Below are positions 8,380 through 35,612 of a DNA stretch of 38,595 bases, piece by piece. The translations under genes and the position numbers were made by a program. The stretch's first letter is position 1, and every line of letters starts with the position of its first letter. Source of the stretch: a virus; IMG/VR virus record IMGVR_UViG_3300035672_000072, positions 1 through 38,595 of that record. One strand, given 5' to 3'. Under the pieces are notes generated by a model. That model was given only the letters and a program-made list of their open reading frames with translations. It searched no databases and was not told where the DNA came from.

Positions 8380-8850
8380 GTGCGTAAAACGGTCCATGGC
8401 GGGGCGCGAGAGAACGCCGGACGTAAGCCGAAACCGCAGATCGAGCAGCGCGCCAACAAGGGCATCGCGAGCGAAGTTCTGTCGATGGATGGAGCGCCGG
8501 AGCACTACCGGAAATGCGGCTGCGCTATTTGCGCGGTGGCAAAGAAGGTCCGGCTGTGTGAGTGCATCATCCGCGTCGGTGAACCGAAGACTGAATGCCA
8601 GTACTGCCGTACTCGATCAGAGCACATCATCTGCCACTGTGAAGTCTGCGGCTGGTGGGAAGGGCTCACCGCAACTGATCGGCGGCTTCGCCTCGACACG
8701 CGCCGCTATCTGACCGACCGGCGCGATGGCAAACCAGCGCAAGGCGTATTCATCGGCGACACCCGCGAAGCGGCAATGGATCTAGATTTTGGCAACCTCC
8801 TCATGCCAGCTTCCCCGGATCAGCCTGGAACGGCTGGTAAACCCAACTGA
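8380..8850 (+). CDS. probable terminase small subunit or associated DNA-binding protein, 156 aa
   Basis: A GTG start with aagagg upstream. The N-terminus HGGARENAGRKPKP matches the GGARxGAGRKP signature that opens many phage terminase small subunits and related DNA-binding proteins. The middle is Cys-rich (CGCAIC, CEC, CQYC, CHCEVC; about 47-88), implying zinc binding. It overlaps the large terminase gene, the normal TerS position. The small subunit recognises the packaging site and regulates the motor. A typical TerS HTH core is not obvious, so the call rests on the N-terminal signature and context. Confidence 0.55.
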   Translation: MRKTVHGGARENAGRKPKPQIEQRANKGIASEVLSMDGAPEHYRKCGCAICAVAKKVRLCECIIRVGEPKTECQYCRTRSEHIICHCEVCGWWEGLTATDRRLRLDTRRYLTDRRDGKPAQGVFIGDTREAAMDLDFGNLLMPASPDQPGTAGKPN

Positions 8851-12004: not shown

Positions 12005-12880
12005 ATGAAAACAGCAATTCGCAGTCTCGCGGCGTTCCTCATCTTGACGGCGGCCGCGTTCGCCCAATCCGCCCCTGGCATCGTTCCCTTCGGCCAGGCC
12101 TTCGGCTACCAGCATCGTCTGGGAGCGATCTTCTACGCGCCTGGCTACGCCACCTGGCAAGGCACCGTCCTGGTCGGCAACTCCGCCACCGGTTCGCAGT
12201 CGATCACCGTGACCGCGAACTCCGGCGGCGTCTCAGGCGTGGCTTCCCTTTCCGATGGCACGTCGATTCCGTTGGCGGTGGTCTTCAACACCTCGACGCC
12301 GCTCTACATCATGGACGCGAACGCGGAGACGGTGACTCCGACTTCAGTCACCGGCCCATTCGGTTGCCCCGCTGGTTATCTCGGCGTGGGATCGGCGACC
12401 CAGTGCGTCACCGTCACTGCCACTTTCGCGAATACCCACGGAGCCAGCGCACCGGTCGTCTCAGGCGATGCCGGCATTGAGGAAGCCTTCACCGACGCCG
12501 CCAACCAAGGCGGAGGGTTGGTGTACTGGGCGACTGACACCGGTACGGTCACGCTCGGAACCGGCGCCCTGACAACGACAACGTTGACGAAGGTTCCGAC
12601 GAACTTTCTTTCGGCGGGAGCATCGGCGATCGTCAAAACCACGATCACCACGTCGGCGAGTTGGGCGGTCGGAATCTCTGGGACCACGGCAGCGTTCTGT
12701 ACGGCGAACGCCACGCTCACTGCCGGCACGACTTGTATTGCCAACATGAACTCACCCGCAACAGTCGGTACTTCGCAAGGCTTAACGGCGGTGCTCTTCA
12801 CGATGGGTACTTCAAACCCTGGCGCCGGCGCCATTAAAGCCCGGCTGTGGGGATGGAGCGCCGTTCAAGCGAATAACTAA
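12005..12880 (+). CDS. virion-operon protein with Sec signal peptide, 291 aa
   Basis: The ATG has aggag upstream. Residues 1-21 form a classical signal peptide: basic MKTAIR, hydrophobic AAFLILTAAA, cleavage at AFA|Q. The mature part is Ser/Thr/Ala/Gly-rich beta sequence with repeated TVT-ANS...GGVSG and choice-of-anchor-like GTTAAFC...TLTAGTTCIA patterns. There are four Cys that could form disulfides. It sits between terminase and portal genes, where a decoration or fibre protein is expected. Export of a head-module protein is unusual. It may be a surface-exposed structural protein or a secreted factor made during infection. Confidence 0.75.
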   Translation: MKTAIRSLAAFLILTAAAFAQSAPGIVPFGQAFGYQHRLGAIFYAPGYATWQGTVLVGNSATGSQSITVTANSGGVSGVASLSDGTSIPLAVVFNTSTPLYIMDANAETVTPTSVTGPFGCPAGYLGVGSATQCVTVTATFANTHGASAPVVSGDAGIEEAFTDAANQGGGLVYWATDTGTVTLGTGALTTTTLTKVPTNFLSAGASAIVKTTITTSASWAVGISGTTAAFCTANATLTAGTTCIANMNSPATVGTSQGLTAVLFTMGTSNPGAGAIKARLWGWSAVQANN

Positions 12881-13012: not shown

Positions 13013-13312
13013 ATGTCATCCCTCGCCGAAGACATTCGCAAAAAGCCTGACGACGAAGACGAAGAGCCACCGGCGCTTTCCGCGCGCGAGACGAAACGCG
13101 CGGAGAAAAAAGGCCGGAGGAAATTCCGTCACGAGATCTCGAAACGCATGTGGAAGGTCGCGGCTCGGCGCATCGGCATGTTTGCGCGGCCGGCACAACT
13201 CCACGAAGCGGCGCGCACTCTCACGGACCGCTACATGCACGCGGTCGATCACGCACCCACGCAAGTGAAGCCGATCGCAGAAGTAACAGTTCCTGTTGAA
13301 GTCAATGGCTGA
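13013..13312 (+). CDS. small basic protein upstream of portal, 99 aa
   Basis: Starts MSSLAEDIRKKPDDEDEEPP, then a very basic region (ETKRAEKKGRRKFRHEISKRM) and a C-terminal domain ending TVPVEVNG. An upstream ATG at 12971 would add 14 residues but is buried in a hairpin. The end overlaps the portal start by 8 bp, so the two are coupled. Mixed acidic/basic sequence suggests a nucleic-acid or portal-associated protein; no family recognised. Confidence 0.6.
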   Translation: MSSLAEDIRKKPDDEDEEPPALSARETKRAEKKGRRKFRHEISKRMWKVAARRIGMFARPAQLHEAARTLTDRYMHAVDHAPTQVKPIAEVTVPVEVNG

Positions 13313-15794
13313 CGAACTCTACAAAGCATCGGGCACCGCCGCTGAAGAAGGCGCGGAGTCTGCCACTACGTCCGATTCCGAATCGCAGGACAATGACCGC
13401 GAAGAGGAAGAGGAAGAGTGGGACGATCCCCTTGCCGACGACGAAGAGTTGCAGAAAGCCTTTCTCTCGCTCTACCTCGAGTGCTCCGCCGAGGACCGCT
13501 ACCCGCGCCTGCTTGAAGTCAAAGACGTGAAGCAGGCGGAGAACTACTGGGCGGGACGGCAATACTGGTACTGGTCCGACAAGGATGAAACCTGGAAGCC
13601 GGCGCCAGGTGTTGGAGTTTCACCAAGTGGGGATCTCGATCTCGACGAGATGCCGCGCTTTGAGTTTGTCACTAACATTTATCAGTCGCGCGGATTGATG
13701 TTCATCGGCGCCGTCGCCGGCGCCCCGCCGCGCTACCGCTTTTTCCCTACCGACTCCGACAACCCCGCCGACACCGACGCCGCGGATGGACGCACTAAGC
13801 TCTCCCGCCTCATCTGGCGCTGGAACCCGGCGCAACTGCTCTTGCAGGACGAGTGTTATCAAGCCTGGTGCGGCGGCTTCATCTGCCTGTGGACACGCTA
13901 CGTCGCCGACGGCGAGAAGCATGGGTTTGACACTATCCCTGGACTCGGCACGAAAGATTCTGATGTGGACTCAACCATCATCTGCCCGAAGTGCGGCTGG
14001 TCCGCGCCGGCGGCGGAAGCCGTGCCTCCGGTTCCCTGCCCTACCTGCGGCACTCAGCTCAGCGATGAAAATATCAGCGAAGAAGAATCGATCCCGGTTC
14101 CGATCGACGCGCAGGATTCCGAAGTCCCGCGCGGCCGCCAGGTGATTGAAGCCTTCGGCGCACTGAACTGCAAGCGGCCGCAGCATACCAAGAATCAAAG
14201 CGAGTGGCACTACTTCGCCATCGAACGCGAGATCCACTACTCGCTCTTGCGGGCCTCGGCCGCCACCGAAGACATTGCCGACAAGATCCGGCCGGGAATG
14301 AACTTCGGTCCCGATGACGCCTTTGAACGCAACGCCCGCCTGGCTGTCGCCGAGAACTCCAAACTGCCCACTCAAACCGGAGCCAAGCAATCGACGCTCG
14401 TGACCCACGTTGACGTTTGGTTCCGGCCTTCCGCCTACTGGATGCTGAAAGACAAAGAGATGCGGCAACGCGCTAAAGATATTTTCCCGCGCGGCGTGCA
14501 TATTCAGTTTGCCGGCAACACGTTCTTTAAATCCGAAGCGCAGTCGATGGACGACTGCCTCGCCACCTGCCACGCCATGCCGGGACGAGGGCAGCATCGA
14601 CCGGCCGTGGGAACGGCGGAGATCTCCGTCCAGGACCGCTTCAACACCTTCTCAAATATCTCGGCGGAAACGTACGAGTACGGCATTCCCATCACCTACC
14701 GGGCTTCCGATACATTCTCGCCCGAAGCCAACGAAGATCAGCGGGCCGCGCCCGGACTCGAAGTCGAAGTCGCGCTGCAACCGGGAGCAGACATTCGTTC
14801 CCGCGTGATGCAGACCCGAGCCGACTCGGTTTCCCCGGACATGCAGAAACACATGATGGACCTGATGGGGCCGATCTCCGACCAGGTCACCGGAACCTAT
14901 CCCGCACTCTCGGGAGCTGGAGAAGATCAGCCGAATACGCTCGGCCAGCAATCTATGCAGCACGATCAGGCGATGGGGCGCATGGGCGTCTTCTACGTGC
15001 CGCTGAAGCAACTGCACGCCGACATCACCACACTCGCCTGCCGCGATTACGAAAAACATTGCAGCGGCAAAGTGAACATCCCGGTGCTCGGCGACTCCGG
15101 CGACTTCGAAAACGAATCAGTGGACGTCGACGCGCTCGAAGGCGATGCCGGGGCCTATCCCGAAGGCGACGAGAACTTCCCCGAACTGTGGAATCAACAG
15201 CGCGCGATCGTGATGCAGATCGCAGATACGCCGTATGGCCAGGAATTAAAGCAGGACATGGGCAACGCGCAACTGTTCGCCAAGATGACCGGCATCCCGG
15301 ATTTAAAAATCCCCGGCCTCGACGACTGGCAATTCCAGTTAAAAGAAATCGCCGATCTGATCCGCATCCCGGAAGGCGAAGAGTTACTGACTGGCATCGC
15401 CCCGCAAGTCGAAGTAGAGAACTATCAGAATCACGGCGTGCATTCCGCCTGCTGTAAATGGTGGCTGAATTCCCCGCGCGGGCAAAAGACTAAACGGGAG
15501 AACCCGCTGGGCTTCGACGCCGTGGTGCAGCACCTGGCGCAGCACGACAGGATGATCCCGCCGCCGCAGCCGCAGGAAAAGCCGCTCACTGAAGCGCTGA
15601 ACATCGCCTTCAAGGATATGCCTCCCGAAGCCCAGGCGCAGGTGCTCGCGAAACTCGGGATCAACGTCACCCCGCAGGATTTCCTTCACAAACTCATGCT
15701 CGACAAAGCGAGCAAAACACCGAAGCACGTACCCGTAACATCCGCCACGCCTTCAGCAACGGGCGCAGGTGAAAGGACACAACTCAATGCTTAA
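13305..15794 (+). CDS. portal protein, P22-like large type, with inserted zinc ribbon, 829 aa
   Basis: The size, position after terminase and before scaffold, and an acidic N-terminus followed by LEVKDVKQAENYWAGRQYWYW and FVTNIYQSRG fit the large portal proteins of short-tailed phages. The ring of 12 subunits forms the DNA entry vertex and docks the terminase. A Cys4 zinc ribbon (C227, C230, C245, C248) is inserted in the stem/wing region; I know of no typical P22-type portal with this. The C-terminus (about 740-829) is Pro- and Gln-rich and helical. ATG 13305 overlaps the previous stop; its own stop overlaps the scaffold start. Confidence 0.8.
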   Translation: MADELYKASGTAAEEGAESATTSDSESQDNDREEEEEEWDDPLADDEELQKAFLSLYLECSAEDRYPRLLEVKDVKQAENYWAGRQYWYWSDKDETWKPAPGVGVSPSGDLDLDEMPRFEFVTNIYQSRGLMFIGAVAGAPPRYRFFPTDSDNPADTDAADGRTKLSRLIWRWNPAQLLLQDECYQAWCGGFICLWTRYVADGEKHGFDTIPGLGTKDSDVDSTIICPKCGWSAPAAEAVPPVPCPTCGTQLSDENISEEESIPVPIDAQDSEVPRGRQVIEAFGALNCKRPQHTKNQSEWHYFAIEREIHYSLLRASAATEDIADKIRPGMNFGPDDAFERNARLAVAENSKLPTQTGAKQSTLVTHVDVWFRPSAYWMLKDKEMRQRAKDIFPRGVHIQFAGNTFFKSEAQSMDDCLATCHAMPGRGQHRPAVGTAEISVQDRFNTFSNISAETYEYGIPITYRASDTFSPEANEDQRAAPGLEVEVALQPGADIRSRVMQTRADSVSPDMQKHMMDLMGPISDQVTGTYPALSGAGEDQPNTLGQQSMQHDQAMGRMGVFYVPLKQLHADITTLACRDYEKHCSGKVNIPVLGDSGDFENESVDVDALEGDAGAYPEGDENFPELWNQQRAIVMQIADTPYGQELKQDMGNAQLFAKMTGIPDLKIPGLDDWQFQLKEIADLIRIPEGEELLTGIAPQVEVENYQNHGVHSACCKWWLNSPRGQKTKRENPLGFDAVVQHLAQHDRMIPPPQPQEKPLTEALNIAFKDMPPEAQAQVLAKLGINVTPQDFLHKLMLDKASKTPKHVPVTSATPSATGAGERTQLNA

Positions 15795-17229
15795 ATATTT
15801 CTTGCACTGGATGCTGTTTGGATCGACCATGTTCGCAGCCGCCGCCGGAGTGGATCTGGCGGGTGGAGGAGGAGCAGGCGATGGCGGAGCTGGCACTGGA
15901 GCCGGAGACGGTGGCGAAGCTGCTGGAGCTGGTGAAGGTTCTGGCGGTGGAGGATCGGAAGATTTTGAGGACGCATCAGGCGGCGAAGGTGAAGGCGATG
16001 AATTACTGGAAGGGCACGTTGACGACCCCGACCAGCAGCAGCATCATCAAGCCACCGACGCCGACAAAGAATCCGCCGACTTCAAGGGCCTCGTCTCGAA
16101 GCGCCTCCTCGCGCTCAAGAAAGAAGCCCCGGAACTAACCGCGGTCTTCCAGAAATATCCCAAAGTGCAGGAGCAGGTCGAAGCGGCCTTCCGCCGCGAC
16201 ATGGCCTACCGTGAACTTTATCCCACGCTCGCTGAAGCACGGCAGATGCGCGAGCAGTTCCCCAATGGCATCGCCGACGTAGAGCAGCTCTACGGAGAAA
16301 TCAAAGAGATCGAAGAAGTCGATCGCGATTTCGAAGGCCGCGACGCCCAGGGCAATTACACCGGGCACGGCAGGCTGGTGCAGAACTTCTTCCAGCGCGA
16401 TCGCGCGGCCGCCGTGTCTTTGTTCAAAACCCTGCCGAAAGAATGGGCGCGACTCGATCCCGACAGCTACAACGAAGTCATGGGCTCGATCGTGGGCGCA
16501 ACCCTGCAACGTTCCGAGATCCCCGAGTGGCTCACTGAGCTGCGCGACTCCGCTAAGTCCGCGAAACAGGATGGCATCGCCGCCTCGCTCGACAAAATGA
16601 TTCGCTGGGCGCAGGGGTTCCAAAAACGCAAAGCCGAACCTTCGGAAGACGAGCGCAGGCTCGAAGGCCAGCGGCAACAATTCCAGCGCGAAACCAGCGA
16701 ACGGCAGCAGCAGGATTTCACCCGCTTCCGCACGACGTTCTCTACCGACTCGCGCCGGCTGCAGGAATCCATCATCCGCAAACACCCGGCCATCGCCTCT
16801 ACCCTTGCCACCAAAGCCTTACCGGAGGCGAAGAAGGCGGAGATCGTTGAGAAGGTCCGCAAGGCGATCGAAGGCCATCTGAAAAGTTCGCGCGCCTTCA
16901 TGTCGAAGCTGACCCCGGCTTACAAGTCGGCGAATTTACAGGAGTGCTTGAATTTACAGAAAGCCCAGTGGAGCTATCCCTGGGTGCTCAACAAGTTCGT
17001 GCGCGCGGTCCTGGCGGAAGAGACGCCGAACCTCGTGCGACAAAACCGGGAGAGAACGCGCGGCTCCGCGTCGCAGTCTCAAAGACAACCCGCCAATCGC
17101 GGACAGCAGCAAGAGAAACGAACACAGGAACGCACCGGACCCTATCAAGAGGGAAACGTGTGGAAGAAGAAAGACGGCTCGCGATTCACCATCTCGGAGC
17201 TGCTACGCGGACTGCATTTGAAGTCCTGA
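15787..17229 (+). CDS. probable scaffolding protein, 480 aa
   Basis: ATG 15787 with gaaagga upstream overlaps the portal stop. A Gly/Ala/Glu-rich disordered region (about 20-100) is followed by long charged helices (ALKKEAPELTAVFQKYPKVQ, RRLEGQRQQFQRETSERQQQ) and a basic C-terminal end (ANRGQQQEKRTQERT...KKKDGSRFTISELLRG). This is typical of scaffolds directly before the major capsid gene: a helical assembly chaperone with a capsid-binding basic tail. Odd: the first about 25 residues (YFLHWMLFGSTMFAAAAG) are hydrophobic, like an export or membrane signal; ATGs at 15808 or 15829 would remove it. Confidence 0.75.
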   Translation: MLKYFLHWMLFGSTMFAAAAGVDLAGGGGAGDGGAGTGAGDGGEAAGAGEGSGGGGSEDFEDASGGEGEGDELLEGHVDDPDQQQHHQATDADKESADFKGLVSKRLLALKKEAPELTAVFQKYPKVQEQVEAAFRRDMAYRELYPTLAEARQMREQFPNGIADVEQLYGEIKEIEEVDRDFEGRDAQGNYTGHGRLVQNFFQRDRAAAVSLFKTLPKEWARLDPDSYNEVMGSIVGATLQRSEIPEWLTELRDSAKSAKQDGIAASLDKMIRWAQGFQKRKAEPSEDERRLEGQRQQFQRETSERQQQDFTRFRTTFSTDSRRLQESIIRKHPAIASTLATKALPEAKKAEIVEKVRKAIEGHLKSSRAFMSKLTPAYKSANLQECLNLQKAQWSYPWVLNKFVRAVLAEETPNLVRQNRERTRGSASQSQRQPANRGQQQEKRTQERTGPYQEGNVWKKKDGSRFTISELLRGLHLKS

Positions 17230-17372: not shown

Positions 17373-18626
17373 ATGCCCGCACAAAATTTAAATTCCGTTG
17401 CACTGCAACTGGAAAAAGTGCGCAAGACGGTTCCGACCGCGTATGAGCAGGAAGTCATCCTGCTCGATCTGATCGACAAGCGCGGCGATTCCGTCGATGC
17501 GTCCACCCGTAACATTCGCCTCCCGCAACTCATCCGTCCCGGCGGGAAATTTTCTCAAGGTTCCGCCGATTTCGACGACATGGGACGCGGCTCCGGTTCC
17601 ACCTGGGATGTAGGGACGCTCTCGACCCTGCATTTCCGCTTCGCCTTCGAAATCTCGAAACTCGCCGAATACGCGAGCAAGGGCAACGACAAGTCGGTCG
17701 AAGATGTGGCGGTCCGCGAAGTCGAAGAAGCGCTCAAGATGTTCAAGCGCGCTCTGGACTGCGTTTACAACACCAACGGCACCGGTCAGCTCGACACCAT
17801 CTCGGCCATCGCCGGCAACGTTGTCAGCGTCACCAACCCCAACCTCTTCTACTTCAACCAGGACATCCAGTTCTATCCCTCCGGCCTCGCTTCGGCCTCG
17901 CGCGGACTGGCGACGGTCATCGCCGTCGATCCGCTGCTCAAGACCGTCACCTTCAACGCGCTGCCACCGGGAACTTCGGTGACCGATGCGCTGGTGATCA
18001 ACATCAGCCAGGGAGCGGGCGGAGCCAATCCCGTTTCGCTCGAAGGGCTGCTCTATAACCACGTCGATTCCCAGTCGGGCACCTGGAACAACATGTCGCG
18101 CTCGACCTATCCGGAAGCGCTCAAGACGCCGCACGTCGCGGCCGGCGGAGCGACCATCACACCGGCTTTGCGCAGGCTCGGAGAAAACAAGCTCCGGCGC
18201 GTGCTGGGCGTGAACTTCGAAGAGCCGATGCTGGCCTACATGAACGTAGACCAGGAAGCGGCTTGGGAGAACGCCGGGCTGACCATCAGCTCGATCATCC
18301 TGAACCAGGTGACCGGTTCGAACTCGGAAGATGCCTTGAAACGGAACACACCGAAGACCTTCGGCGGGATCCCGATCAAGACTTCGATCCACGCCACCAT
18401 CCAGCGCATCGACATCATCCTGTTGAAGCACTGGGGACGCGGCATCACCAAAGAGATCGACATGTTCGAACTCGGCGGCCAGACCACCTATCAGGTGTAT
18501 GGAGCGTCCGGCGGACTCGAGGCTGGCTATCTGCAGTACTTCGACACCGTCTTCAACGTCTTCATGGACCAGCCGCGCTACGGCGTGTTCTGGGATGGAT
18601 TGGCGTTGCCGGTCGGCGGCTACTAA
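17373..18626 (+). CDS. major capsid protein (HK97-fold, inferred), 417 aa
   Basis: ATG 17373 is chosen from tctggag upstream rather than the longer frame from 17250. The protein starts MPAQNLNSVALQLEKVRKTV and contains a helical N-arm, a spine-like EVEEALKMFKRALDC region, and a conserved-looking C-terminal GGIPIKTSIHATIQRIDIIL segment ending DQPRYGVFWDGLALPVGGY. Size, position after the scaffold, dedicated ribosome site and flanking RNA structures fit the capsid subunit. The fold itself is inferred, since sequence alone cannot show it. Confidence 0.8.
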   Translation: MPAQNLNSVALQLEKVRKTVPTAYEQEVILLDLIDKRGDSVDASTRNIRLPQLIRPGGKFSQGSADFDDMGRGSGSTWDVGTLSTLHFRFAFEISKLAEYASKGNDKSVEDVAVREVEEALKMFKRALDCVYNTNGTGQLDTISAIAGNVVSVTNPNLFYFNQDIQFYPSGLASASRGLATVIAVDPLLKTVTFNALPPGTSVTDALVINISQGAGGANPVSLEGLLYNHVDSQSGTWNNMSRSTYPEALKTPHVAAGGATITPALRRLGENKLRRVLGVNFEEPMLAYMNVDQEAAWENAGLTISSIILNQVTGSNSEDALKRNTPKTFGGIPIKTSIHATIQRIDIILLKHWGRGITKEIDMFELGGQTTYQVYGASGGLEAGYLQYFDTVFNVFMDQPRYGVFWDGLALPVGGY

Positions 18627-21544: not shown

Positions 21545-21771
21545 CCTACGTGAAACTTCCTAAACTGTAATTCTTGGAGCTTTGAATCCAGATCTGGCGT
21601 CATTTCCATGCCCATGATCGCCAGGTCTGCAATTATCCGCAGGTGGAACTCGTCCGGATCGCAGTTGTAGCAATCACAATCAACTAGCCGCACAATATCG
21701 CAATCCCCGAAGATATGCCCGCAGCGATAACGTGTCGCTATACGTTCCAGCCGTAAATTTTCACATCCCAT
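21541..21771 (-). CDS. antisense-oriented small Cys-rich protein, 76 aa
   Basis: The only coding candidate in the 225-bp space between two plus-strand genes. Start at 21771 has gagga upstream. The sequence YRCGHIFGDCDIVRLVDCDCYNCDPDEFHLRIIADLAIM has six Cys plus His, again a zinc pattern. Its stop overlaps the upstream gene's end by four bases and its ATG shares CATG with the divergent plus gene. This looks like a moron inserted into the structural operon. Confidence 0.6.
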   Translation of the reverse strand: MGCENLRLERIATRYRCGHIFGDCDIVRLVDCDCYNCDPDEFHLRIIADLAIMGMEMTPDLDSKLQELQFRKFHVG

Positions 21772-22537
21772 GCCAGTCCTCGGATCCTCAGCTTATAACA
21801 CCGCCGAAGACGTTTTAAACCGTCTTCGTGCGATCGTGAACGACTCGGAAGTCGCGGGCGGGGATATCCTCACCGACTCCGCGCCCTTCACCTTCATTCT
21901 GCTCAACGGCGGCTACGAGCGCGTGCAACTGGAACTGGCGAAAGTGGGCATCGAAACTTTTATCCAGGACTGGTGGCTGATCGGGCTGCCCATCATGTCC
22001 ACGGTGGATCCCGAAGCCCGCATGGTGATCGACGACTCCGGCTGCAACATTATTTATCCAAACGGAACGGGCGATGTGTTCGCGTCCGCGCCGCAGCTCC
22101 CCGTCAATCTTTTGTTGCCGCTCGATCTCTACGAGCGCCAGACGGGCTCGACCAACGAAGCCGCCAAAATGGAGCAGCCGAATGCCGGCCTTCCCTCCGT
22201 CAGCCAGCAAAGTCTCCTGCAGGACTGGGAGTGGAAAGCGGACGGCATCCGCACGCGCGGCGCGCTGCAATCGCAGGACGTAAAAATTGTCGGCGAAGCC
22301 AACCTGCCGAAACTGATCAGCCCCACCGATCCCGTGCCGATTCGCGGTGTACTCAACGCGGCGGCGTATTTCGCAGCCATGATTTTCGCCGAATCGCGCG
22401 GCGGCCTCATCTCCCCGCAGTTCAAGGCGCATGCCGACGAAGAGATTTTCTTGCGCATTCAGATTTCCGCGCGACGCCGGCAACGCAAGCAAGTGCGGCG
22501 ACGTCCGTATTCGTCACGAGGGCGCGGGTGTTCCTGA
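21770..22537 (+). CDS. probable head-tail connector/neck protein, 255 aa
   Basis: Starts MPVLGSSAYNTAEDVLNRLR and carries helical and beta segments (FTFILLNGGYERVQLELAKV, IQDWWLIGLPIMSTVDPEAR). The C-terminus is very basic (ARRRQRKQVRRRPYSSRGRG). Position after capsid genes and before tail genes suggests a head-completion protein. The basic tail could contact DNA. Its ATG is nested with the divergent start of the antisense gene and no Shine-Dalgarno is seen. Confidence 0.6.
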   Translation: MPVLGSSAYNTAEDVLNRLRAIVNDSEVAGGDILTDSAPFTFILLNGGYERVQLELAKVGIETFIQDWWLIGLPIMSTVDPEARMVIDDSGCNIIYPNGTGDVFASAPQLPVNLLLPLDLYERQTGSTNEAAKMEQPNAGLPSVSQQSLLQDWEWKADGIRTRGALQSQDVKIVGEANLPKLISPTDPVPIRGVLNAAAYFAAMIFAESRGGLISPQFKAHADEEIFLRIQISARRRQRKQVRRRPYSSRGRGCS

Positions 22538-23058: not shown

Positions 23059-26000
23059 ATGATCTCCGACGATCTCATCGACGTGCCCGTCGAAGTGTTC
23101 GGCGGCTATTGTCCGGCCATCGTGCCGGCCAATCTGCCGCCGGGCGCCGCCAACATCGCGCAGGATGTCGCATTCCCGCAAGCCGGGGTGCGCACGCGCG
23201 GCGGACTGGGGAATGGCGTCGCCTTCGCCGGCGCTGCGATCCCGGCGGGCGCCTCGATCAACGGGCTGAAAACTTATCTCACTCCATCGGGCGGACAACG
23301 TCTGATGATCTGGGATTCGCTCGGAGATCTGTTCAAGGAAAACCCGCAAGGCACGCTCAGTCTGATCAACTCCCGGCCCTACCAGAATCTTTTCTGTGAA
23401 TCGCAGACGCTGTTTGGGCGCGAGTACCAGGCGTTTTTCAATTCGCTCGGCGGAGCAGATATTCCGCGGCAGTTCGATGACACCAACTGGGACCGAGTCA
23501 GCCAGGTAGGGCCAGGTGTGGCGCCGACAGCCGGAAGTTTTACTCCAGCGCCCGCCACGATACAAGGCGCTGCAGGCGCGCCCATCAACATTTCCACCGT
23601 GGTCTGGGGCGGACAATTTATCGGGCAGCCACCTCATATCACTTCCTACTACGCCTACTTCACGGTCACCACGGCTGCCGCCCATGGCCTGGTCGCAGGA
23701 CAGAGGGTGACACTTGCCGGCTCGAACGCTACCCCCTCGGTCAACGGAACCCAAACCGTAAACGCAGTTCCCTCTCCCACTACCTTTACCGTTCTCGACA
23801 CCGTTCTGTTTTCCTCTGCCGCCAATGGCACGGCTGCGGGGACGGTGACCGCAAGCACAGCCAGTCTTTCGCGCGTAGCCGGGGTGGTATTGGCGTCAAC
23901 CTCTGCGGCCCACGGCTTTCAAGCCGGTTGGCAGGTTCTAATCTCCGGAGTTCCTAACACAAACATCGGCGGCGGGATTTCTGCCATCGCGCGCGACGGC
24001 ACCGGCACGGTCACGGTCACAACGGCTGCCGCCCATGGCCTGGTTGTCAATTCTAAAATCGCCATCAACGGAGTCACCAATCCGGACGCGACTTTCAACG
24101 GGACCTTTCCTGTCGCCGCAGTTCTCAGCCCAACGCAATTTACTTATCTTCAGAGCGGCACCGTTGCCGCCTCTGGCGCGGGCACAGGCAATGTGCAAGA
24201 TATCTGGGATACCTTAGCCGTCATCGCCTCGGTTCCATCGACAACGACCTTCACTTATAACCAGACAGGCGCGAACGACACCACGACCAGTACGGGAACC
24301 GCCACAATTGTGCCGCAGGTGATGTCCGGCCTGCATCAGGTCTCGGTGGCGTTCATCACCCGGCAAGGCTATATCACCAAGCCGGCCCCGCCGGTCGCCT
24401 TCAACGCGACCGATGCGGGTCTTATCTCGTTGTCGCAGATTGCGACCGGCCCCTCGAACATCGTCGGACGGCTTCTGCTATTTACTCCAGTGATTTCGCC
24501 CCCGGCGACAACCGGGTCGTTCTACAGCATCACCAGTGCCGGGCTCGGCGGTCCGGCAATGATTATTAACGACAACACGACCACGGGTTTTGTAGCGGAT
24601 TTCAATGAGGCGATCCTGATCGCCAGTTTCGCGGCCAATTATCTCTTCAATCAACTGGAGCTTGGGGAGTCGGCATTCTTTCTGCCCTACAATTCGCGGA
24701 CGGTCTGGCTGGGAGAGCGCAACAAGGTTTCCAATTTCGATAACCTCACCTTTGATGGCGGCTTTCAGGGTTCCCTGCCGAATGGCTGGACGCCTGACCC
24801 CAACAATAACGCGGGCGGCGGCTCCGCCCTCGCGCAGCCCGCTCCGACCGATTGGGGCGATGCCTATTTAATCCAAGGCGACGGAGCCACCGCGATCCGC
24901 GGCAAGATCACGCAGCCTGCTTATCAGGATTCGCTTGGAGTCGCGATTATTCAGGCGAATACGTCCTACTCGGTGCGAGTGCGACTGGCGGCTTCTGCCG
25001 GATTTTCGCAGGGCACGCTGCATATCAATTTATCGTCCGTCTCCGGAGCCTTCACCACAGTTGGGCTTGCCGTCCCTGCCGCCTCGCTCCCGGTCGGCAT
25101 CTACAAGGAATTCATCGCAGCCTTAACCGACGTACCGCTTGCGAATCTCCCCAGCGATCTCGTGTTGCAGGTCTATATGGATGGCACCCCGAACAACGGG
25201 GCCTTTGTGGTTGTCGATTCGATCGAACCCTTTCCGACTCTCACTCCTTTCAACTCCTCACTGGCGCGGATCTCGCGCGCCTTCAATCCGGAATCGTTTG
25301 ACTCCATCACCGGGCAAGTGCAGATTCGCGCGGGCGACGGCCAGCAATTGCGCGCCGGATTCCCTTTGCGCAACTCGCTCTATCTCGCGAAGGATCACTA
25401 CCTCGGCTACGTCACCGACGACGGCGTGAACGAGCCGGCTTTGTGGGCCTTCACTGAAGTTTCGGCGACGGTTGGCATCTGTGGGCCGAACGCGGTGGAT
25501 TGGAACGAAGAGTGGGCGGTGTTTGCCGAACGCAGCGGAGTTTATTTGTGCTGGGGCTCGGACCCGGCCAAGATCACCCCGGAGATCCAGTCGGACGCGA
25601 GCGGCGCCGGCCGCACTTCCTGGGCTTCGATCAACTGGGCGTTCGCTTCCACCATTTGGGTGCGCATCGACAAAGTGAACAAAATGATTTTGATCGGCGC
25701 GCCCATCAACGGAGCCACCACGCCGAACGTCGTCTTCATGATGGATTACCGCTGGCTCGACAACGCGGAAGACATCGCCGCTTCCCCGCTCGTGACTTAT
25801 TCCTCATTCACCGGAAAGATCCTGGCGCACGGCCGCGGCCGCCGCTGGGCCATCTGGAACATCGCCGCGAACTCAATGACATTTGCCGAGCGCGCCGATG
25901 GCACGGCGCAACCTTTTTTCGGCGGGGTGGGCAACGGAACAGTTTTCTGGCAGCAGGATATTTCAATTCAAGGTTTTGACCACGGAGCGGCCGTCAACGG

Positions 26001-26334
26001 AATTTACCAGAGCTACCCTCTGCCCTCGTCGATGGAAGAGCAGCAATACCAACTCCGCGCCCATCGAAAACTTTTCGGCTATCTGAAGTTCCGCGCCTTC
26101 GGTTCAGGCACGCTGAATCTGGCGGTGGGCACGGTGCAACGTTCGACGCTGCTGCGCGGCTACCCGCTTTCGGCCAACCCGGTCGGCGACGGCGAGCGTC
26201 CGCTCAACATCCACGGCGAGCGCTTCTTCCTGACGGTTTCGACCAACGCAGTGAACTCCTGGTTCCAGTTGGAAAAATGGATTGCCTGCATCAAGAAAGA
26301 TTCTTCGGCGCTGGTGCGGGGCGTGAGTTCGTAA
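23059..26334 (+). CDS. large tail protein (tail hub/needle-like), 1091 aa
   Basis: An N-terminal domain VEVFGGYCPAIVPANLPPGA opens a protein with a recurring AAAHGLVAGQ...NGTQTV motif: at least two strong copies (near residues 210 and 325) of a beta-rich domain similar to those found in phage tail proteins. The centre has a carbohydrate-binding-like jelly-roll region (about 590-700), and the C-terminal half has beta-propeller-like repeats (WNEEWAVFAERSGVYLCWG, ILAHGRGRRWAIWNIAAN). Likely a main tail component that binds the spikes. The DNA near 23661 and 24012 repeats over 33 bp with one mismatch. Confidence 0.7.
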   Translation: MISDDLIDVPVEVFGGYCPAIVPANLPPGAANIAQDVAFPQAGVRTRGGLGNGVAFAGAAIPAGASINGLKTYLTPSGGQRLMIWDSLGDLFKENPQGTLSLINSRPYQNLFCESQTLFGREYQAFFNSLGGADIPRQFDDTNWDRVSQVGPGVAPTAGSFTPAPATIQGAAGAPINISTVVWGGQFIGQPPHITSYYAYFTVTTAAAHGLVAGQRVTLAGSNATPSVNGTQTVNAVPSPTTFTVLDTVLFSSAANGTAAGTVTASTASLSRVAGVVLASTSAAHGFQAGWQVLISGVPNTNIGGGISAIARDGTGTVTVTTAAAHGLVVNSKIAINGVTNPDATFNGTFPVAAVLSPTQFTYLQSGTVAASGAGTGNVQDIWDTLAVIASVPSTTTFTYNQTGANDTTTSTGTATIVPQVMSGLHQVSVAFITRQGYITKPAPPVAFNATDAGLISLSQIATGPSNIVGRLLLFTPVISPPATTGSFYSITSAGLGGPAMIINDNTTTGFVADFNEAILIASFAANYLFNQLELGESAFFLPYNSRTVWLGERNKVSNFDNLTFDGGFQGSLPNGWTPDPNNNAGGGSALAQPAPTDWGDAYLIQGDGATAIRGKITQPAYQDSLGVAIIQANTSYSVRVRLAASAGFSQGTLHINLSSVSGAFTTVGLAVPAASLPVGIYKEFIAALTDVPLANLPSDLVLQVYMDGTPNNGAFVVVDSIEPFPTLTPFNSSLARISRAFNPESFDSITGQVQIRAGDGQQLRAGFPLRNSLYLAKDHYLGYVTDDGVNEPALWAFTEVSATVGICGPNAVDWNEEWAVFAERSGVYLCWGSDPAKITPEIQSDASGAGRTSWASINWAFASTIWVRIDKVNKMILIGAPINGATTPNVVFMMDYRWLDNAEDIAASPLVTYSSFTGKILAHGRGRRWAIWNIAANSMTFAERADGTAQPFFGGVGNGTVFWQQDISIQGFDHGAAVNGIYQSYPLPSSMEEQQYQLRAHRKLFGYLKFRAFGSGTLNLAVGTVQRSTLLRGYPLSANPVGDGERPLNIHGERFFLTVSTNAVNSWFQLEKWIACIKKDSSALVRGVSS
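23661..24044 (+). repeat. 33-bp repeat within the large tail gene
   Basis: Copies at 23661-23693 and 24012-24044 differ by one base. Each codes for a TVTTAAAHGLV segment, so it reflects recent duplication of a domain. Confidence 0.8.
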
Positions 26335-29926: not shown

Positions 29927-31888
29927 ATGAGCGATAAAACCTCACGCCTTCTCTTTGCCGCCGCGCTGATTTTCTGCGCCTGTTTCGCCCACGCCCAGAA
30001 CGTACGCCAGGACGGGGTTGTCAGTTCCCGCTCCGGCCAGCCCGCCGGGGGAGCCTTTGTGGCCGTCTGCACCCAGCCCGCCAATACTTCTGTCGCTCCC
30101 TGCTCACCCCTGGCTCCGCTGTGCTCCTCTCTGAGTGACATCGCCTGCACCCAGACGAACCCGGTTCAGGCCGACGGCCTCGGCAACTTCCACTTCTACG
30201 CGAAGCTCACTTCCCTGCCCGTCACCATCCAGTACTTTGGTCCCAACGTCCCCACCTACTCGGTCCCAGACCAGACATTCGGAGGCGGCAACGGCAGCGG
30301 AGGATCGCCTGGCGGCTCCAGCCTGCAATTGCAATACAACAATGCCGGCTTCTTTGCCGGCCTGCCCTGCACCTGGACCAATGGAACTTCTACCCTGGCT
30401 TGTACCGGGACGATCAACGCGTCGGTCGGGTTGAACATCGGAACCTCGTCGCCGACTGCGTGCACTGGGATATCGGGCTGCATTGCCCTTGCTGAAGCGT
30501 CCACCCCCTGCACGCCTACCGCAGGTCAGATTTGCTTTCGAGCCGACGCAATTAATCACGCATTGAAAGTGTCTGTCGATGCCGGGGCGGAATACATCGA
30601 ATTTCCGCAAGTTCCTCTTGTGGTGGGGGCGGGTATTTCGACGTGGGGAACGGGTGACATCGGAGCACAAATCAACGCAGCCTACGCCGCCCTCCCTTCA
30701 ACGGGCGGAATTATCTCGATGCTTGCGGGGCCATGCCTCACTTACTCCACGCCAATTGTATTCGGAACTTCTCATAAACCCGTTGCGCTGGTGGGTGCGG
30801 GAAATTACGGCACCTGCCTTACCTATACAGGAACCACCGGAGCGGCCATCACCGTCAACGTCGGCGTGCAAGGCCGCATCAACCGCTTGGAGGATTTTAT
30901 TCTTACTGGTCCCGGCATTGGGACAAGCACTACCGGAGTCGTGATCGGTGGAGCGACGGATAGCGGCACCAATTTCGCGCACACCAGCCGCATGTTAATT
31001 GCCTCCTTCGGATTGGGCATGCAGTTTGTCGGATCGAATACCTGGGGATTTGTCGGCTACGAAATGCAGTTGAACGACAACGGGCAAAACTTTTCCGACA
31101 CCTACGGGCAAGAGAACAATAGCTTCATCGGCTCGAAGTTCTCGATCGACACCCCGGGAACGAACGGCACGGTTGCCAACAGCGTCCAGATTTCAGGAAG
31201 CTCCGATTGGAACTTCTACGGGTGCAGCTTCGACAACGTGCAACTTTCCGTATCATCGAACGCCATCATTCACATCTTCGGCGGCCACTTTGAAAACCCA
31301 GCTTCCACAAGTTACGACTACTTCGTATGCGCGGGCCTCGAATGCTCCTTCAACGAAGTTCTATTCAATCAGGACAATGCTTCGGCCTTTGCCAATAATC
31401 GCTTCGGAACCGCGTCGAGTGGCGTGGTTAGCTTTTACGGTGGGACGGCGTTCTCCGCGCTGAGCCCGTTAGGAAGCTTCGTGAACACTACAGGAAGCGC
31501 AAAGCTTAACGCTTTCGGACTACTTCTCGACTCCTCGTTCAGCGGTTTTTACAGCAGCACCAGTTCTGGAACGGTAAGCGTCTGCCCGCTCGACAATTTC
31601 GGGAACTGCTCGATCTCCGGCTCGCTGATTTCCAAAGGTCTCTACCAACCCGCCGCCAATACTTATGCGGGGAAATGTGCAATGGGTGCCACCACCACCT
31701 GCACCTATACGGCAAGCGGCCCGGCCTTCGGAAATTACGTTTCTTTTGCCTCGATTGATCAGGCCTCAGCCCCGCCGGCAACCGCGATTTCGGCGAAGTG
31801 CAGTTTGTCGGGAACGACCGTCACGATCACCGCCGGCGCAAGCAACTCCCTTACTTGGGATTGTTTGTTTGTAGGAAATCCGAACTAG
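29927..31888 (+). CDS. spike-like beta-helix protein with Sec signal peptide, 653 aa
   Basis: Signal peptide at residues 1-23 (SRLLFAAALIFCACFAHA|Q). An N-terminal Carboxypeptidase-regulatory-like segment (QDGVVSSRSGQPAGGAFVAV) is followed by a parallel beta-helix typical of tail spikes and pectate-lyase-like proteins: GDIGAQINAAYAALPSTGG is the classic entry to such helices, then GAGNYGTCLTY, many short strands. Cys are frequent. Location in the tail-spike slot suggests receptor binding or polysaccharide cleavage, yet the signal peptide implies export; see findings. Confidence 0.75.
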   Translation: MSDKTSRLLFAAALIFCACFAHAQNVRQDGVVSSRSGQPAGGAFVAVCTQPANTSVAPCSPLAPLCSSLSDIACTQTNPVQADGLGNFHFYAKLTSLPVTIQYFGPNVPTYSVPDQTFGGGNGSGGSPGGSSLQLQYNNAGFFAGLPCTWTNGTSTLACTGTINASVGLNIGTSSPTACTGISGCIALAEASTPCTPTAGQICFRADAINHALKVSVDAGAEYIEFPQVPLVVGAGISTWGTGDIGAQINAAYAALPSTGGIISMLAGPCLTYSTPIVFGTSHKPVALVGAGNYGTCLTYTGTTGAAITVNVGVQGRINRLEDFILTGPGIGTSTTGVVIGGATDSGTNFAHTSRMLIASFGLGMQFVGSNTWGFVGYEMQLNDNGQNFSDTYGQENNSFIGSKFSIDTPGTNGTVANSVQISGSSDWNFYGCSFDNVQLSVSSNAIIHIFGGHFENPASTSYDYFVCAGLECSFNEVLFNQDNASAFANNRFGTASSGVVSFYGGTAFSALSPLGSFVNTTGSAKLNAFGLLLDSSFSGFYSSTSSGTVSVCPLDNFGNCSISGSLISKGLYQPAANTYAGKCAMGATTTCTYTASGPAFGNYVSFASIDQASAPPATAISAKCSLSGTTVTITAGASNSLTWDCLFVGNPN

Positions 31889-32982
31889 TGCAATATCTCC
31901 TCATCTTCGCGATGCTCTGTAGCGGAGCAGCCGCTGCTCAGACCTTCCCGAACCTCGATGACACGAATTCGGGATGGGGAAGCTGCAATGTCAGTTGCGC
32001 AGGAGGCACCGGAACCGCGACTGCCTTTCCGCGCACCATCAATAATCCGACTCCTTCGCTCGATGGCGAGTCGATGGAAGTCAGCATTACCGGTCCCTCG
32101 CTCTCGCCTGGACACACAACCAACGCGCTCTGGTACGAGAAGGTGGGAGCGAACAATTCCCTCTCCACATTCACCGGAACTTACAACGTTTACTTTCCCT
32201 CGTTCTCAAACATAGCGGCCGCGGAGTACGACCAGTTTCAATTCAACGCCGGCACTCGCTTCATGATGGGCTCACAGTGCCTGACGGGCGGGGTGTGGCA
32301 GATCTGGAACTCCTGCGGCGGCGCATGGCTCAACACGTCCGTCTCCTGCAGCCTCACCACGAATGCCTGGCACAGCATCGTTTGGAATACGCATCGCGAT
32401 CCCTTAACCAGCACCTCGTGCGGCGGTCATCCCTGCGAATATTACGACAAGCTGACGATCGATGGCGTTCCGAACGGACCGTTTACGGCGCAGCCGGCGT
32501 GCAGCAGCGCCGACTCAGATAACGTCGGCATTCAGGTGCAAATCGATCTGAACTCCACGGGCGGAACTGCCATCGAGTTTGTCGACGAGATGAGTTTGAC
32601 TTCGGGGGTGCCTACTTTCAGTTATTCCCCGAATCCAGTCGCGATCGGCAACGTCCCGGTAGGCTTCAGCTCTCCGACGACCGTGACGATCACCAATAGC
32701 GGTAGCGGCGTACTCATCGTCGGAACACTCTCTTCGAACAATGCGCAATTCACCTTTACTTCTGACGGGTGCTCTGGACAGAACGTCGCCCCGTTGGGGA
32801 CGTGCACCTTCAATTTAGTGTTCCAGCCTTTGAGCCTCGGGTTGCAGAGCGCAACCATCACGGTGCCGGATAACGCTGGGAATCCGGATACGATTTCGGC
32901 CACGGGAACCGGGACTGCGACCGCCAGCGGCACCTCAATTTCTGGAGGAGTACAGATTTCGCCAGGAGTACAGATTAAATGA
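31888..32982 (+). CDS. secreted ConA-like / choice-of-anchor-D protein, 364 aa
   Basis: GTG at 31888 overlaps the previous TAG. Hydrophobic signal YLLIFAMLCSGAAAA|Q (few basic residues before it). Residues about 20-235 look like a concanavalin-type sandwich (polysaccharide-binding). Residues about 245-350 (SYSPNPVAIGNVPVGFSSPT ... ITNSGSGVLIVGTL ... CTFNLVFQPLS) form a choice-of-anchor-D domain common in acidobacterial secreted proteins. Together these suggest a surface glycan-binding protein. Codes between two spike-like genes. Confidence 0.7.
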   Translation: MQYLLIFAMLCSGAAAAQTFPNLDDTNSGWGSCNVSCAGGTGTATAFPRTINNPTPSLDGESMEVSITGPSLSPGHTTNALWYEKVGANNSLSTFTGTYNVYFPSFSNIAAAEYDQFQFNAGTRFMMGSQCLTGGVWQIWNSCGGAWLNTSVSCSLTTNAWHSIVWNTHRDPLTSTSCGGHPCEYYDKLTIDGVPNGPFTAQPACSSADSDNVGIQVQIDLNSTGGTAIEFVDEMSLTSGVPTFSYSPNPVAIGNVPVGFSSPTTVTITNSGSGVLIVGTLSSNNAQFTFTSDGCSGQNVAPLGTCTFNLVFQPLSLGLQSATITVPDNAGNPDTISATGTGTATASGTSISGGVQISPGVQIK

Positions 32983-35612
32983 AGAACTTTTTCGCGGTTG
33001 CGTGTTTCGGGTTGCTGCTTTTTGCGGCGGTGGCCGCAGAGGGGCAAGGGCAGAATTTCCCCGGGGGCGCTGGTAGCCTCGTCGCAACGCCAACCCAAGG
33101 CTATGAGGCTTCGGGGAGCAGCACCGGGCAGATCATCACCAGCGCCTCCAGCGTTCACGCCGAGGACTTTTGTGGCGCGGGTGGCTTTAGTTCAACGCTC
33201 GGGGCTTGCGTATTGAATTACGACGGCACCCACTCCATCGGTCACGGAGCCTGCCAAGCCGTCATCGCAGCCATCGCCTCACAAGGAGTTAACGTTGGCT
33301 ACATCGACGCGCGAGCCTTCACCGGAACGCAATTTATTGATTCCAACTGTGGTGTCACGTTAAGTTACGGCGGAACTGCGAACTCTCCGGGATCGACAGT
33401 CAACGGCAAAGTTTTGTGGGGGAATGCAACGTACATCGTCGACGGGCCCACCACGCTGCCATTTTTTACAGATGGCGCGGTGAGCGGCACGCCGAGTTTT
33501 TCAGGCCCGTCTACCTGGGGCACGCCTGGTTTCCTCTTAGCCAATCAGTTCACTGGATTCTTCGGAGTCTCGAAGGACGCTTCGATTTTTGTCCCTTGCT
33601 CTACAACGACTACCGGATGCGTGCACGATTGGCCCTCGCGCAGCTTCCCGATCACCTCTACCTCGGTAGCCGGAAACACAATGACCATTACGGTCACCGG
33701 GACATTGCTGGCCACCGGAAATCCCAGCGCGATCGTCACCAGCTTTACCGGAACTTCGGGCACGCTGTCTTTTACGAACTCGGGAACAAATAATTTCTAT
33801 TCCGGTTTTCAGACTGTGCTGTTCGGATTCACCGGAGCCAACGTTGGATTGAATGGGCAGACGGTCACCGTTTCGGCCACTGGACTGAGCGCGACGACTT
33901 TTCAAGCTACGGTCACTGGTTCGGGCTACTCTTCTGCGGGCGGATACGCTTCGGAGCAAAACATCTATCCCACCGGCGGCGGACTGACAGGAGAATATGC
34001 CTTCCTCGTCGGATCGTCGCTCGATAACAACAATTCTTACTACATCGTAAAGACGGTTCCAACCAGCACGACGATCACTGTCGGAGTGCCGACCGGAGCC
34101 ACATCCTGCGCCTCGAACTGCGGCACGTTATGGCTTGGCACGGCGATGCACGCTTGGGGAATGCAAATTGTTAATCAAGCCTACATTCCACAACAGGGCG
34201 GAGCGGGATTGCAGTCGTTCGCCCAGCGTCTCGAAGACATCGGCATTTACGGAGGGTCCACCACAATTCCTCAAGGTAAATCGTGGCCCTATGGTTTCAT
34301 CGCCATGCAGAACAGCAACGCTGGCGAACACGCGGGAGCCTCGCACATTCAGTGTGATTACATCGCGGGAATGTGTCTTGATCTTCATGGCGGGTCGACC
34401 GACTCAGGGCCGTGGGATAACTTGCGGATGACCAACCTGGGGAACAACAATGCCGTCCGGTCAACGGTGGGATTCGGCGTTGCGGGAGCGATTCGCGGTA
34501 TTTACAACTCTTCCGTCATCACGCCCTATCCGGTCGGGACGCTCACCACATCGGCTGGGGCTCTCGGGGGATGCACGACGAACTGTGCTCAGCAAGTCAG
34601 CGGTACGAACTTTGCCACGATGTTGCCGAACACTCAAATCAACATTGCGGGGACGTTGTTCACGATTAGTGTCGTCAACTCCACTTCGATTCTCACCCTT
34701 ACGACGAATCCCGGTACGCAAACGGCCGTTGCGTTTCAGTATGGTCAGCCGTTGGCCTGCATTGCCATTGATGGGCAGGGCCCGACGGCGAACCTCTCGC
34801 CCGTGTTTCTAGCAAATCACCCGGAAGCCTGCGCGGATGGTTATCGTTTAGCCGCAAATTATAGCGTCCGGGGAGTCAGCATTCTAGGCTTCCTTGGCGG
34901 GCCGAGCGGCGGTCATGCCAACGTCAACCTGGTTCACGCCGTCGCCGCAGGCAATCTGGTTCTAGGCAGTGCAGTAATGGGAGTGGACACTCAAGCTAGC
35001 GGCGCCACGGCGACTGTGCAAGACGACATCAACGGGAATAGCTGTCTTGATTTGCCGCTGAATAGCTACCAATGGGACCCTTCGGGCATCCCGATGTATT
35101 CCTGCAAATCAGGAACGTTCGCGACCGGCGTGCAGACGATGAACGGAATCGTCCATAGCTACAACGCCACGAAGAGTCTGACAGTAGACTCAGCTTCCAT
35201 TACGGCTACGACCCCCGCGACCTCGACCACCGTCTTCACCTTCAGCAATTTCATTCCGAACGTCACCCTAAACATTCATTGCTCCGGGACGACCACGCAA
35301 GCCACGGCCGGGGCGGGGATCGGCATCGCCTTCCAGACGGCCACGGTTGCGGCCGCGACCGAACTTCACGCGTCGGTAGCCACCGGACCAGCAGCGTCAG
35401 CCTACCAGTCGAGTGGGACGGTTTCAGGCACGAGCGCCAATGTGATTTATGCAGGATCGACGGGCACGCTCACGACACAATTGCCCTGGACGATTGATGG
35501 ATCGATCACTCTCGGCGCAACTGTTCCGTCTGCATTAAATATTGCCTTCTACAGCATCAACGCTTCGGACGGAGTTGTGGTGAAGGCGAATAGCACCTGC
35601 GCGATCCGCTAG
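32979..35612 (+). CDS. large secreted spike-like protein, 877 aa
   Basis: aggag lies before the ATG, which overlaps the previous stop. Signal peptide FFAVACFGLLLFAAVAAEGQ. The mature part contains an exported beta-helix entry (HGACQAVIAAIASQGVNVGY), IgG-like Thr/Ser-rich strands (TMTITVTGTLLATGNPSAIV), a distal beta-helix (about 380-600) and a C-terminal jelly-roll-like domain (about 720-877). Likely the main receptor-binding or depolymerase spike. Confidence 0.7.
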   Translation: MKNFFAVACFGLLLFAAVAAEGQGQNFPGGAGSLVATPTQGYEASGSSTGQIITSASSVHAEDFCGAGGFSSTLGACVLNYDGTHSIGHGACQAVIAAIASQGVNVGYIDARAFTGTQFIDSNCGVTLSYGGTANSPGSTVNGKVLWGNATYIVDGPTTLPFFTDGAVSGTPSFSGPSTWGTPGFLLANQFTGFFGVSKDASIFVPCSTTTTGCVHDWPSRSFPITSTSVAGNTMTITVTGTLLATGNPSAIVTSFTGTSGTLSFTNSGTNNFYSGFQTVLFGFTGANVGLNGQTVTVSATGLSATTFQATVTGSGYSSAGGYASEQNIYPTGGGLTGEYAFLVGSSLDNNNSYYIVKTVPTSTTITVGVPTGATSCASNCGTLWLGTAMHAWGMQIVNQAYIPQQGGAGLQSFAQRLEDIGIYGGSTTIPQGKSWPYGFIAMQNSNAGEHAGASHIQCDYIAGMCLDLHGGSTDSGPWDNLRMTNLGNNNAVRSTVGFGVAGAIRGIYNSSVITPYPVGTLTTSAGALGGCTTNCAQQVSGTNFATMLPNTQINIAGTLFTISVVNSTSILTLTTNPGTQTAVAFQYGQPLACIAIDGQGPTANLSPVFLANHPEACADGYRLAANYSVRGVSILGFLGGPSGGHANVNLVHAVAAGNLVLGSAVMGVDTQASGATATVQDDINGNSCLDLPLNSYQWDPSGIPMYSCKSGTFATGVQTMNGIVHSYNATKSLTVDSASITATTPATSTTVFTFSNFIPNVTLNIHCSGTTTQATAGAGIGIAFQTATVAAATELHASVATGPAASAYQSSGTVSGTSANVIYAGSTGTLTTQLPWTIDGSITLGATVPSALNIAFYSINASDGVVVKANSTCAIR

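Follow-up and report, generated by a model that had tools for sequence, protein, structure and literature searches.

The stretch of DNA analysed here (the window) is the whole of a 38.6-kb linear IMG/VR virus record. Three consecutive genes, which we call spikes 1, 2 and 3, each begin with a Sec-type signal peptide, as an earlier note made from the sequence alone had proposed, and the starts it placed at 29927, 31888 and 32979 are correct. The features of the window are collected in Table 1; several of the gene names come from position and weak matches, and the label 'major capsid' was assigned from genome position and conservation. The portal and spike 1 found zero matches among 50,697 phage records, so the virus group is essentially undescribed. 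PADLOC detected nothing in the window. The large nozzle-like tail protein is kept in 16 of 19 records, and a PHROG tail fiber match covers its insert. About half of the members have a hydrophobic N-terminus on the scaffold-like protein (MLKYFLHWMLFGSTMFAAAA, window 15769-15860), which is absent elsewhere; we considered membrane-attached assembly through this stretch and rejected it as a general feature, given that it is kept in only about half of the members.

Table 1. Features of the window and of related records discussed in the text.
Feature	Position	Strand	Basis or remark
Early genes	start of the gene order		
Terminase	8789-10360		
Small genes and gene 12005	between terminase and portal		
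Fourth signal-peptide protein, head region (signal peptide, residues 1-20)	12005..12880	+	conserved family, 17 members
Portal	13305-15794		
Scaffold-like gene	15769		after portal
Major capsid protein	17373..18626	+	reference gene of the virus group; used in finding relatives
Connector-like genes	up to 22537		
Connector-like virion gene	21770..22537	+	homologue adjoins signal-bearing spike in MAG-linked relatives
Large tail protein (nozzle-like), no signal peptide	23059..26334	+	variable inserted repeats
Low-complexity internal genes	between nozzle-like gene and the three spike genes		
Spike 1, putative precursor of an exported tailspike-like protein, 653 aa	29927..31888	+	ORF; signal peptide; homologues in 15/15 related records that reach the slot
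Sec signal peptide of spike 1, residues 1-23, predicted cut before Q24	29927..29995	+	n/h/AxA pattern
N-terminal domain of spike 1, tailspike virion-docking type, residues 24-121	29996..30289	+	hhalign, AF2, Foldseek
Conserved cysteine pair, codons Cys48 to Cys59	30068..30103	+	both in 22/23 signal-bearing members of alignment A6
Spike 2, putative exported protein with C-terminal ASH/choice-of-anchor-D-like domain, 364 aa	31888..32982	+	signal peptide; PF15780
Signal peptide of spike 2, residues 1-17	31888..31938	+	sequence and random-draw test
Spike 3, putative exported protein, fold unrecognised, 877 aa	32979..35612	+	signal peptide; mature QGQNFPGG motif
Signal peptide of spike 3, about residues 1-22	32979..33044	+	random-draw test
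QNFPG motif just behind the spike 3 signal peptide	33051..33065	+	common to unrelated signal-peptide proteins of the group
DUF5675 gene	35729		downstream of the spikes
Spanin-like gene	36151		followed by small membrane genes
Other QNF sites	G006:43215; G008:38235, 35433; G010:21505, 23977; G015:32913; G018:3747; G007:5902; G009:27698		
Relatives with an insert in the docking domain	L027:5585; L030:12569 (minus); L033:13397 (minus); L036:5381; L039:12555 (minus)		

Signal peptides were called with a home-made, heuristic score of the n-, h- and c-regions, together with conservation. By this heuristic the N-termini have the pattern of signal peptidase I substrates, with all three regions and an AxA-type site. 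The predicted signal of spike 1 is MSDKTSRLLFAAALIFCACFAHA, with cleavage leaving a mature protein that starts QN; that of spike 2 is MQYLLIFAMLCSGAAAA, followed by QT; and that of spike 3 is MKNFFAVACFGLLLFAAVAAEG, followed by QGQNF, with the exact site uncertain within VA-A-EG. Of 5000 random N-termini drawn from the composition of the respective protein, 4, 13 and 2 scored as high as those of spikes 1, 2 and 3 (0.04-0.26%). The signal of spike 2 is the weakest of the three, having a weak n-region that lacks K or R. Spike 2 starts at a GTG that overlaps the spike 1 stop; a longer reading frame from 31798 is possible, but it overlaps spike 1.

Behind its signal, spike 1 carries what appears to be a small docking domain of the kind found on podovirus tailspikes. 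In a single hhalign comparison, its N-terminal domain (NTD) matched known tailspike NTDs with a probability of 94 and an E-value of 1.4e-7, and the matched part corresponds to the N-terminal ~80 residues of tailspikes and depolymerases already described (Enterobacter phage Arya, Klebsiella KA2-1, Serratia MQ-4 and Spe5P4, Erwinia KEY and others). In all eight aligned known tailspikes the domain starts at the initiator methionine, with no signal peptide. The sole PDB profile match was weak and fell on a tailspike head-binding domain (7eeq, E 0.73), and the NTD also weakly matches carboxypeptidase-regulatory-like folds. An AlphaFold2 (AF2) model of the NTD built from 25 members reached a pLDDT of 88.6. 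Its viral neighbours in Foldseek include many N-termini of phage pectate-lyase-superfamily proteins and tailspikes (TM 0.6-0.73, E down to 3.5e-4). Among the top 50 PDB matches listed, the highest TM scores were those of the cyanopodophage Pan3 tail protein (0.63) and the P22 tailspike (0.59-0.61); no individual PDB match was significant, the lowest E-values belonging to dioxygenases (best 0.017) and carboxypeptidase D, which have a similar beta-sandwich. We read this as a tailspike docking domain, identified by profile and predicted fold, with the caveat that the fold is a generic one. Among the three spikes, only spike 1 has such a domain.

Searches with the capsid and portal sequences yielded about 20 related contigs. 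Single-sequence searches of viral contigs with each spike gave no matches, which is explained by conservation being limited to the first ~150 residues; searches of INPHARED with the spikes also found no match, and homologues of spikes 2 and 3 are absent from the collections searched. In most relatives the part shared with spike 1 spans residues ~1-150, and the remainder is swapped from phage to phage. Spike 1 lies in a virion module and pairs a constant N-terminus with an exchangeable C-terminus. One relative has a 48% identical copy of this C-terminus (residues 541-653) in its head module, placed between the portal and the 12005 homologue (G014:C1:11953-12279), so that bodies may be exchanged between this module and the spike slot. 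In two other genomes (L037 and G030:C23), the spike gene with signal peptide and docking domain is duplicated, giving two copies per genome.

The first spike gene starts with a signal peptide in 15/15 related records that reach the slot, and most additional slot genes of the relatives bear one too. Across the 16 aligned members (alignment A1), the signal differs in both sequence and length but keeps its charge, hydrophobic core and AxA/GxA site, followed by an invariant glutamine at +1. Genes were called in all fetched records (640) and then grouped, giving 25 families that occur in four or more records. The signal-peptide score was reached by 16/18 members of the spike 1 family and 12/17 members of the 12005 family, together 28/35, as against 3/298 for the other 23 families. 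Far from the spike slot, one relative has three short signal-peptide genes in a row (L033:15085-16625, minus strand, oriented coordinates).

The earlier note had named start codons downstream of the hydrophobic stretch in related phages as one observation that would speak against export. Across the whole near clade we found none that is usable: in the window, the first internal start of spike 1 falls at residue 45, inside the docking domain, which rules it out, and starts that skip the signal and spare the domain are not conserved among relatives. Such starts occur only in a distant sister group (G020/G021, 32% capsid identity) and in an Acidobacteriota metagenome-assembled genome (MAG; G304), both of which lack the cysteine pair of the docking domain. 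In G020/G021 the same domain starts MSVFRKDG, without a signal, and its second cysteine is replaced by proline. In G304 the domain has no signal and neither cysteine and forms a separate protein of 171 aa (L095:1492-2007), followed by a signal-bearing gene, an arrangement that is possibly a split adaptor and exported spike. In the capsid tree, which was midpoint-rooted and in which the placement of a long branch is unsure, the signal-bearing records cluster, and a very long branch carries G020 as the outgroup. With two signal-less cases, this pattern is only suggestive of the signal having been added once, together with the cysteine pair.

Cysteines are abundant in all three spikes, as had been claimed, with 21, 10 and 18 in the mature parts of spikes 1, 2 and 3. 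Signal-peptide proteins longer than 300 aa contain 2.2% cysteine versus 0.97% for the others (Mann-Whitney U, p 5.6e-10), and 28 of 35 have an even count (binomial p 2.5e-4); since the proteins are mutually related, these p-values are indicative. Enrichment and mostly even counts are expected if disulfides form after export. Closely spaced pairs in spike 1 (48/59, 66/74 and 148/159) and spike 3 (377/381, 459/466 and 532/536) fit with disulfides. The conserved pair of the docking domain, Cys48/Cys59, is missing in both signal-less members of alignment A6. Five relatives have a repeat-like domain within the docking domain, placed between the two conserved cysteines and similar to the inserts of the nozzle-like tail protein.

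The mature bodies had been described as beta-helix or lectin-like, a description that holds only in part. The C-terminus of spike 2 is an ASH/choice-of-anchor-D-type domain (PF15780, residues 244-331, E 3.2e-7), and its N-terminal half has no profile match. No Pfam, PHROG or PDB profile match covers the bodies of spikes 1 and 3; PDB sequence searches with the spikes gave chance-level matches only, and the AlphaFold model of full-length spike 1 is of low confidence (pLDDT 38). Among 15 relatives, one spike has a pectate-lyase-like domain (1.3e-7) and one a tail-spike PHROG match. The second slot protein of one relative (L030:6688-9183, minus strand) carries both a signal peptide and a GH18 domain (E 3.6e-26).

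A fourth signal-peptide gene, missed by the earlier note, lies in the head region between terminase and portal. Twelve of the 17 members of this 12005 family reach the heuristic score, and nearly all look signal-like by eye; the family has a conserved cysteine pair (121/134), comes in types with short and long C-termini, and has no match in Pfam. Signal-bearing proteins of the group also share a QNF motif behind the signal, found in 11 of 67 proteins with a signal peptide versus 0 of 475 without (~0.4 expected), one of the 11 cases (G003) lying further in from the signal. Often in the form GQGQNFPG or QQNF, the motif occurs in proteins of the head module as well as of the spike slot and is possibly a second docking or sorting tag.

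A search with the docking domain alone recovered further virus contigs and five genome contigs, all five from Acidobacteriota MAGs. A capsid homologue was present in all 12 NTD-bearing records tested, and the NTD occurs in only 3/396 Acidobacteriota genomes; being rare in these genomes and tied to the capsid gene, it is a viral domain and not a common host secretion module. In the MAG-linked relatives (L089, L101-L103), the signal-bearing spike lies between capsid-adjacent genes and the connector, in the order capsid, g19596, g20678, spike, connector. Host-type genes near the L089 locus, among them a neighbouring host-like protein of ASH/choice-of-anchor-D type, support the Acidobacteriota assignment. 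The acidobacterial host group put forward earlier is therefore borne out by phage-gene matches in five Acidobacteriota MAGs. Capture of the spikes from such a host is another matter, fitting at most the ASH domain of spike 2 and made unlikely for spike 1 by the rarity of its NTD.

We consider the spike-slot genes best explained as encoding receptor-binding proteins of tailspike type in a podovirus-like group of soil phages with Acidobacteriota as hosts, and spike 1 as an ordinary tailspike design, a small docking NTD with an exchangeable body, that has gained a Sec signal peptide. The spikes are probably exported. Export is not expected of tailspikes in tailed phages, and assembly would have to end with an unusual step; cysteine content and parity are indirect signs of export and of disulfide formation, both of which are strongly inferred. 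Virion membership and loading at lysis we only infer. The mechanism that we propose, and to which we give about an even chance of being right, is that the spikes are tailspikes re-routed via the periplasm and loaded onto virions at lysis. Host Sec machinery would export the precursors, signal peptidase would cleave off residues 1-23 of spike 1, and the mature spikes would fold and form disulfides in the periplasm, with capsids and tails being built in the cytoplasm. When holin and endolysin opened the inner membrane, virions would meet ready-made spikes, which would dock through the N-terminal domain as the final assembly step. Loading poses a spatial problem, because virion and spike would meet only at lysis; P22 tailspikes are added last and bind spikeless particles in vitro. 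A broader proposal, which we hold plausible at somewhat short of an even chance, is that this lineage matures both its spikes and the head-module signal-peptide protein in the periplasm and completes its virions only at lysis, cleavage creating a mature N-terminus (glutamine at +1, or the QNF motif) that adjoins the docking surface.

The strongest rival, which we regard as possible though rather doubtful, is that the proteins are secreted and not virion-borne. They would then be free depolymerases or adhesins, loosening the exopolysaccharide of the host, aiding release or preventing superinfection, and the docking-like domain would have been re-used. Clean signal peptides and cysteine enrichment would suit free enzymes, as would the GH18 domain in a relative's slot protein and the precedent of Pantoea WceF, a host-encoded, exported enzyme of tailspike fold (PMC7949094). 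The nozzle-like tail protein, with its variable inserts, could itself be the receptor-binding protein. A further point against our preferred reading is that the bodies lack a recognised fold, except for the ASH domain of spike 2. Against free enzymes stand a docking domain kept in all members and strictly co-occurring with the capsid gene, the virion-operon position in MAG-linked relatives, and mosaic bodies behind a constant N-terminus, which is the usual receptor-binding pattern; the retained domain and its association with the capsid gene speak for a place in the virion.

Two further explanations appear improbable. The spikes may be passengers, secreted acidobacterial proteins captured with their signal peptides and serving no virion role, an origin to which the ASH domain of spike 2 and its counterpart in the host-like L089 neighbour lend some weight. 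For spike 1 such an origin is unlikely by distribution: the NTD is nearly absent from Acidobacteriota genomes, the five MAG loci all lie in genomes carrying the capsid gene, and the signal-bearing gene is kept across the whole clade. Nor does the first spike gene behave as the 'lysogenic-conversion type' cargo suggested in the earlier note, being present in every record that reaches the slot, bearing a docking domain like that of tailspikes and sitting between capsid and connector in the MAG-linked relatives; it is not a dispensable insertion that is absent from close relatives and outside the virion operon, as a moron would be. Alternatively, and with slightly less probability still, the proteins may stay in the cytoplasm, their hydrophobic N-terminus being retained to serve the virion structurally or in docking, much as other virion proteins of some members (the scaffold-like 15769) have hydrophobic N-termini. 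Against this, the stretch varies and yet preserves the hallmarks of a cleavable signal and the invariant +1 glutamine, the proteins are enriched in cysteines with even counts, and in known proteins with homologous docking domains nothing precedes the domain.

The cytoplasm is where tailed phages are assumed to have their receptor-binding proteins folded and assembled. If our preferred reading, loading of exported tailspikes at lysis, is true, virion assembly can finish outside the cytoplasm, and the making of large cysteine-rich spikes is explained; annotation would change as well, many such proteins being ones that would at present be labelled as secreted proteins of the host. Acting free instead, the spikes would constitute a conserved phage-secreted enzyme set.

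Among known systems, the closest to spike 1 are podovirus tailspikes of the P22 gp9 type, with which it shares a small NTD of the same predicted fold class (TM 0.59-0.61), a profile match of the NTDs, a variable body and a tail/virion gene context. It differs in its Sec signal peptide and cysteine pairs, the eight aligned tailspikes starting at the docking domain; the usual tailspike trait of being made without a signal peptide and folded in the cytoplasm does not hold here, as every near-clade member carries the signal. Filamentous phage pIII and pVIII are virion proteins with cleaved signal peptides, but they sit in the inner membrane before being assembled as the particle is extruded, and are not soluble spikes of a lytic tailed phage. 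The tailspike domain and the Sec signal are thus each of a known kind, and their combination appears new, as the literature searched, which leaves out most subscription journals, turned up no spike of a tailed phage described as having a signal peptide. A DsbA dependence of phages reported for Klebsiella was considered as a precedent and set aside, as it was explained there by surface receptors (PMC13412088). In a study of the targets of diversity-generating retroelements, variable binding proteins of phages and bacteria, absence of signal peptides was taken as a mark of phage origin (PMC6199706), a rule that the spikes described here break. WceF of Pantoea stewartii, a trimeric beta-helix encoded in an exopolysaccharide cluster and bearing a Tat signal, resembles the spikes, as we read them, in being exported and having a tailspike-like fold (PMC7949094); WceF is bacterial and uses Tat, whereas spike 1 is viral, carries a Sec-type signal and has kept its predicted virion-docking domain.
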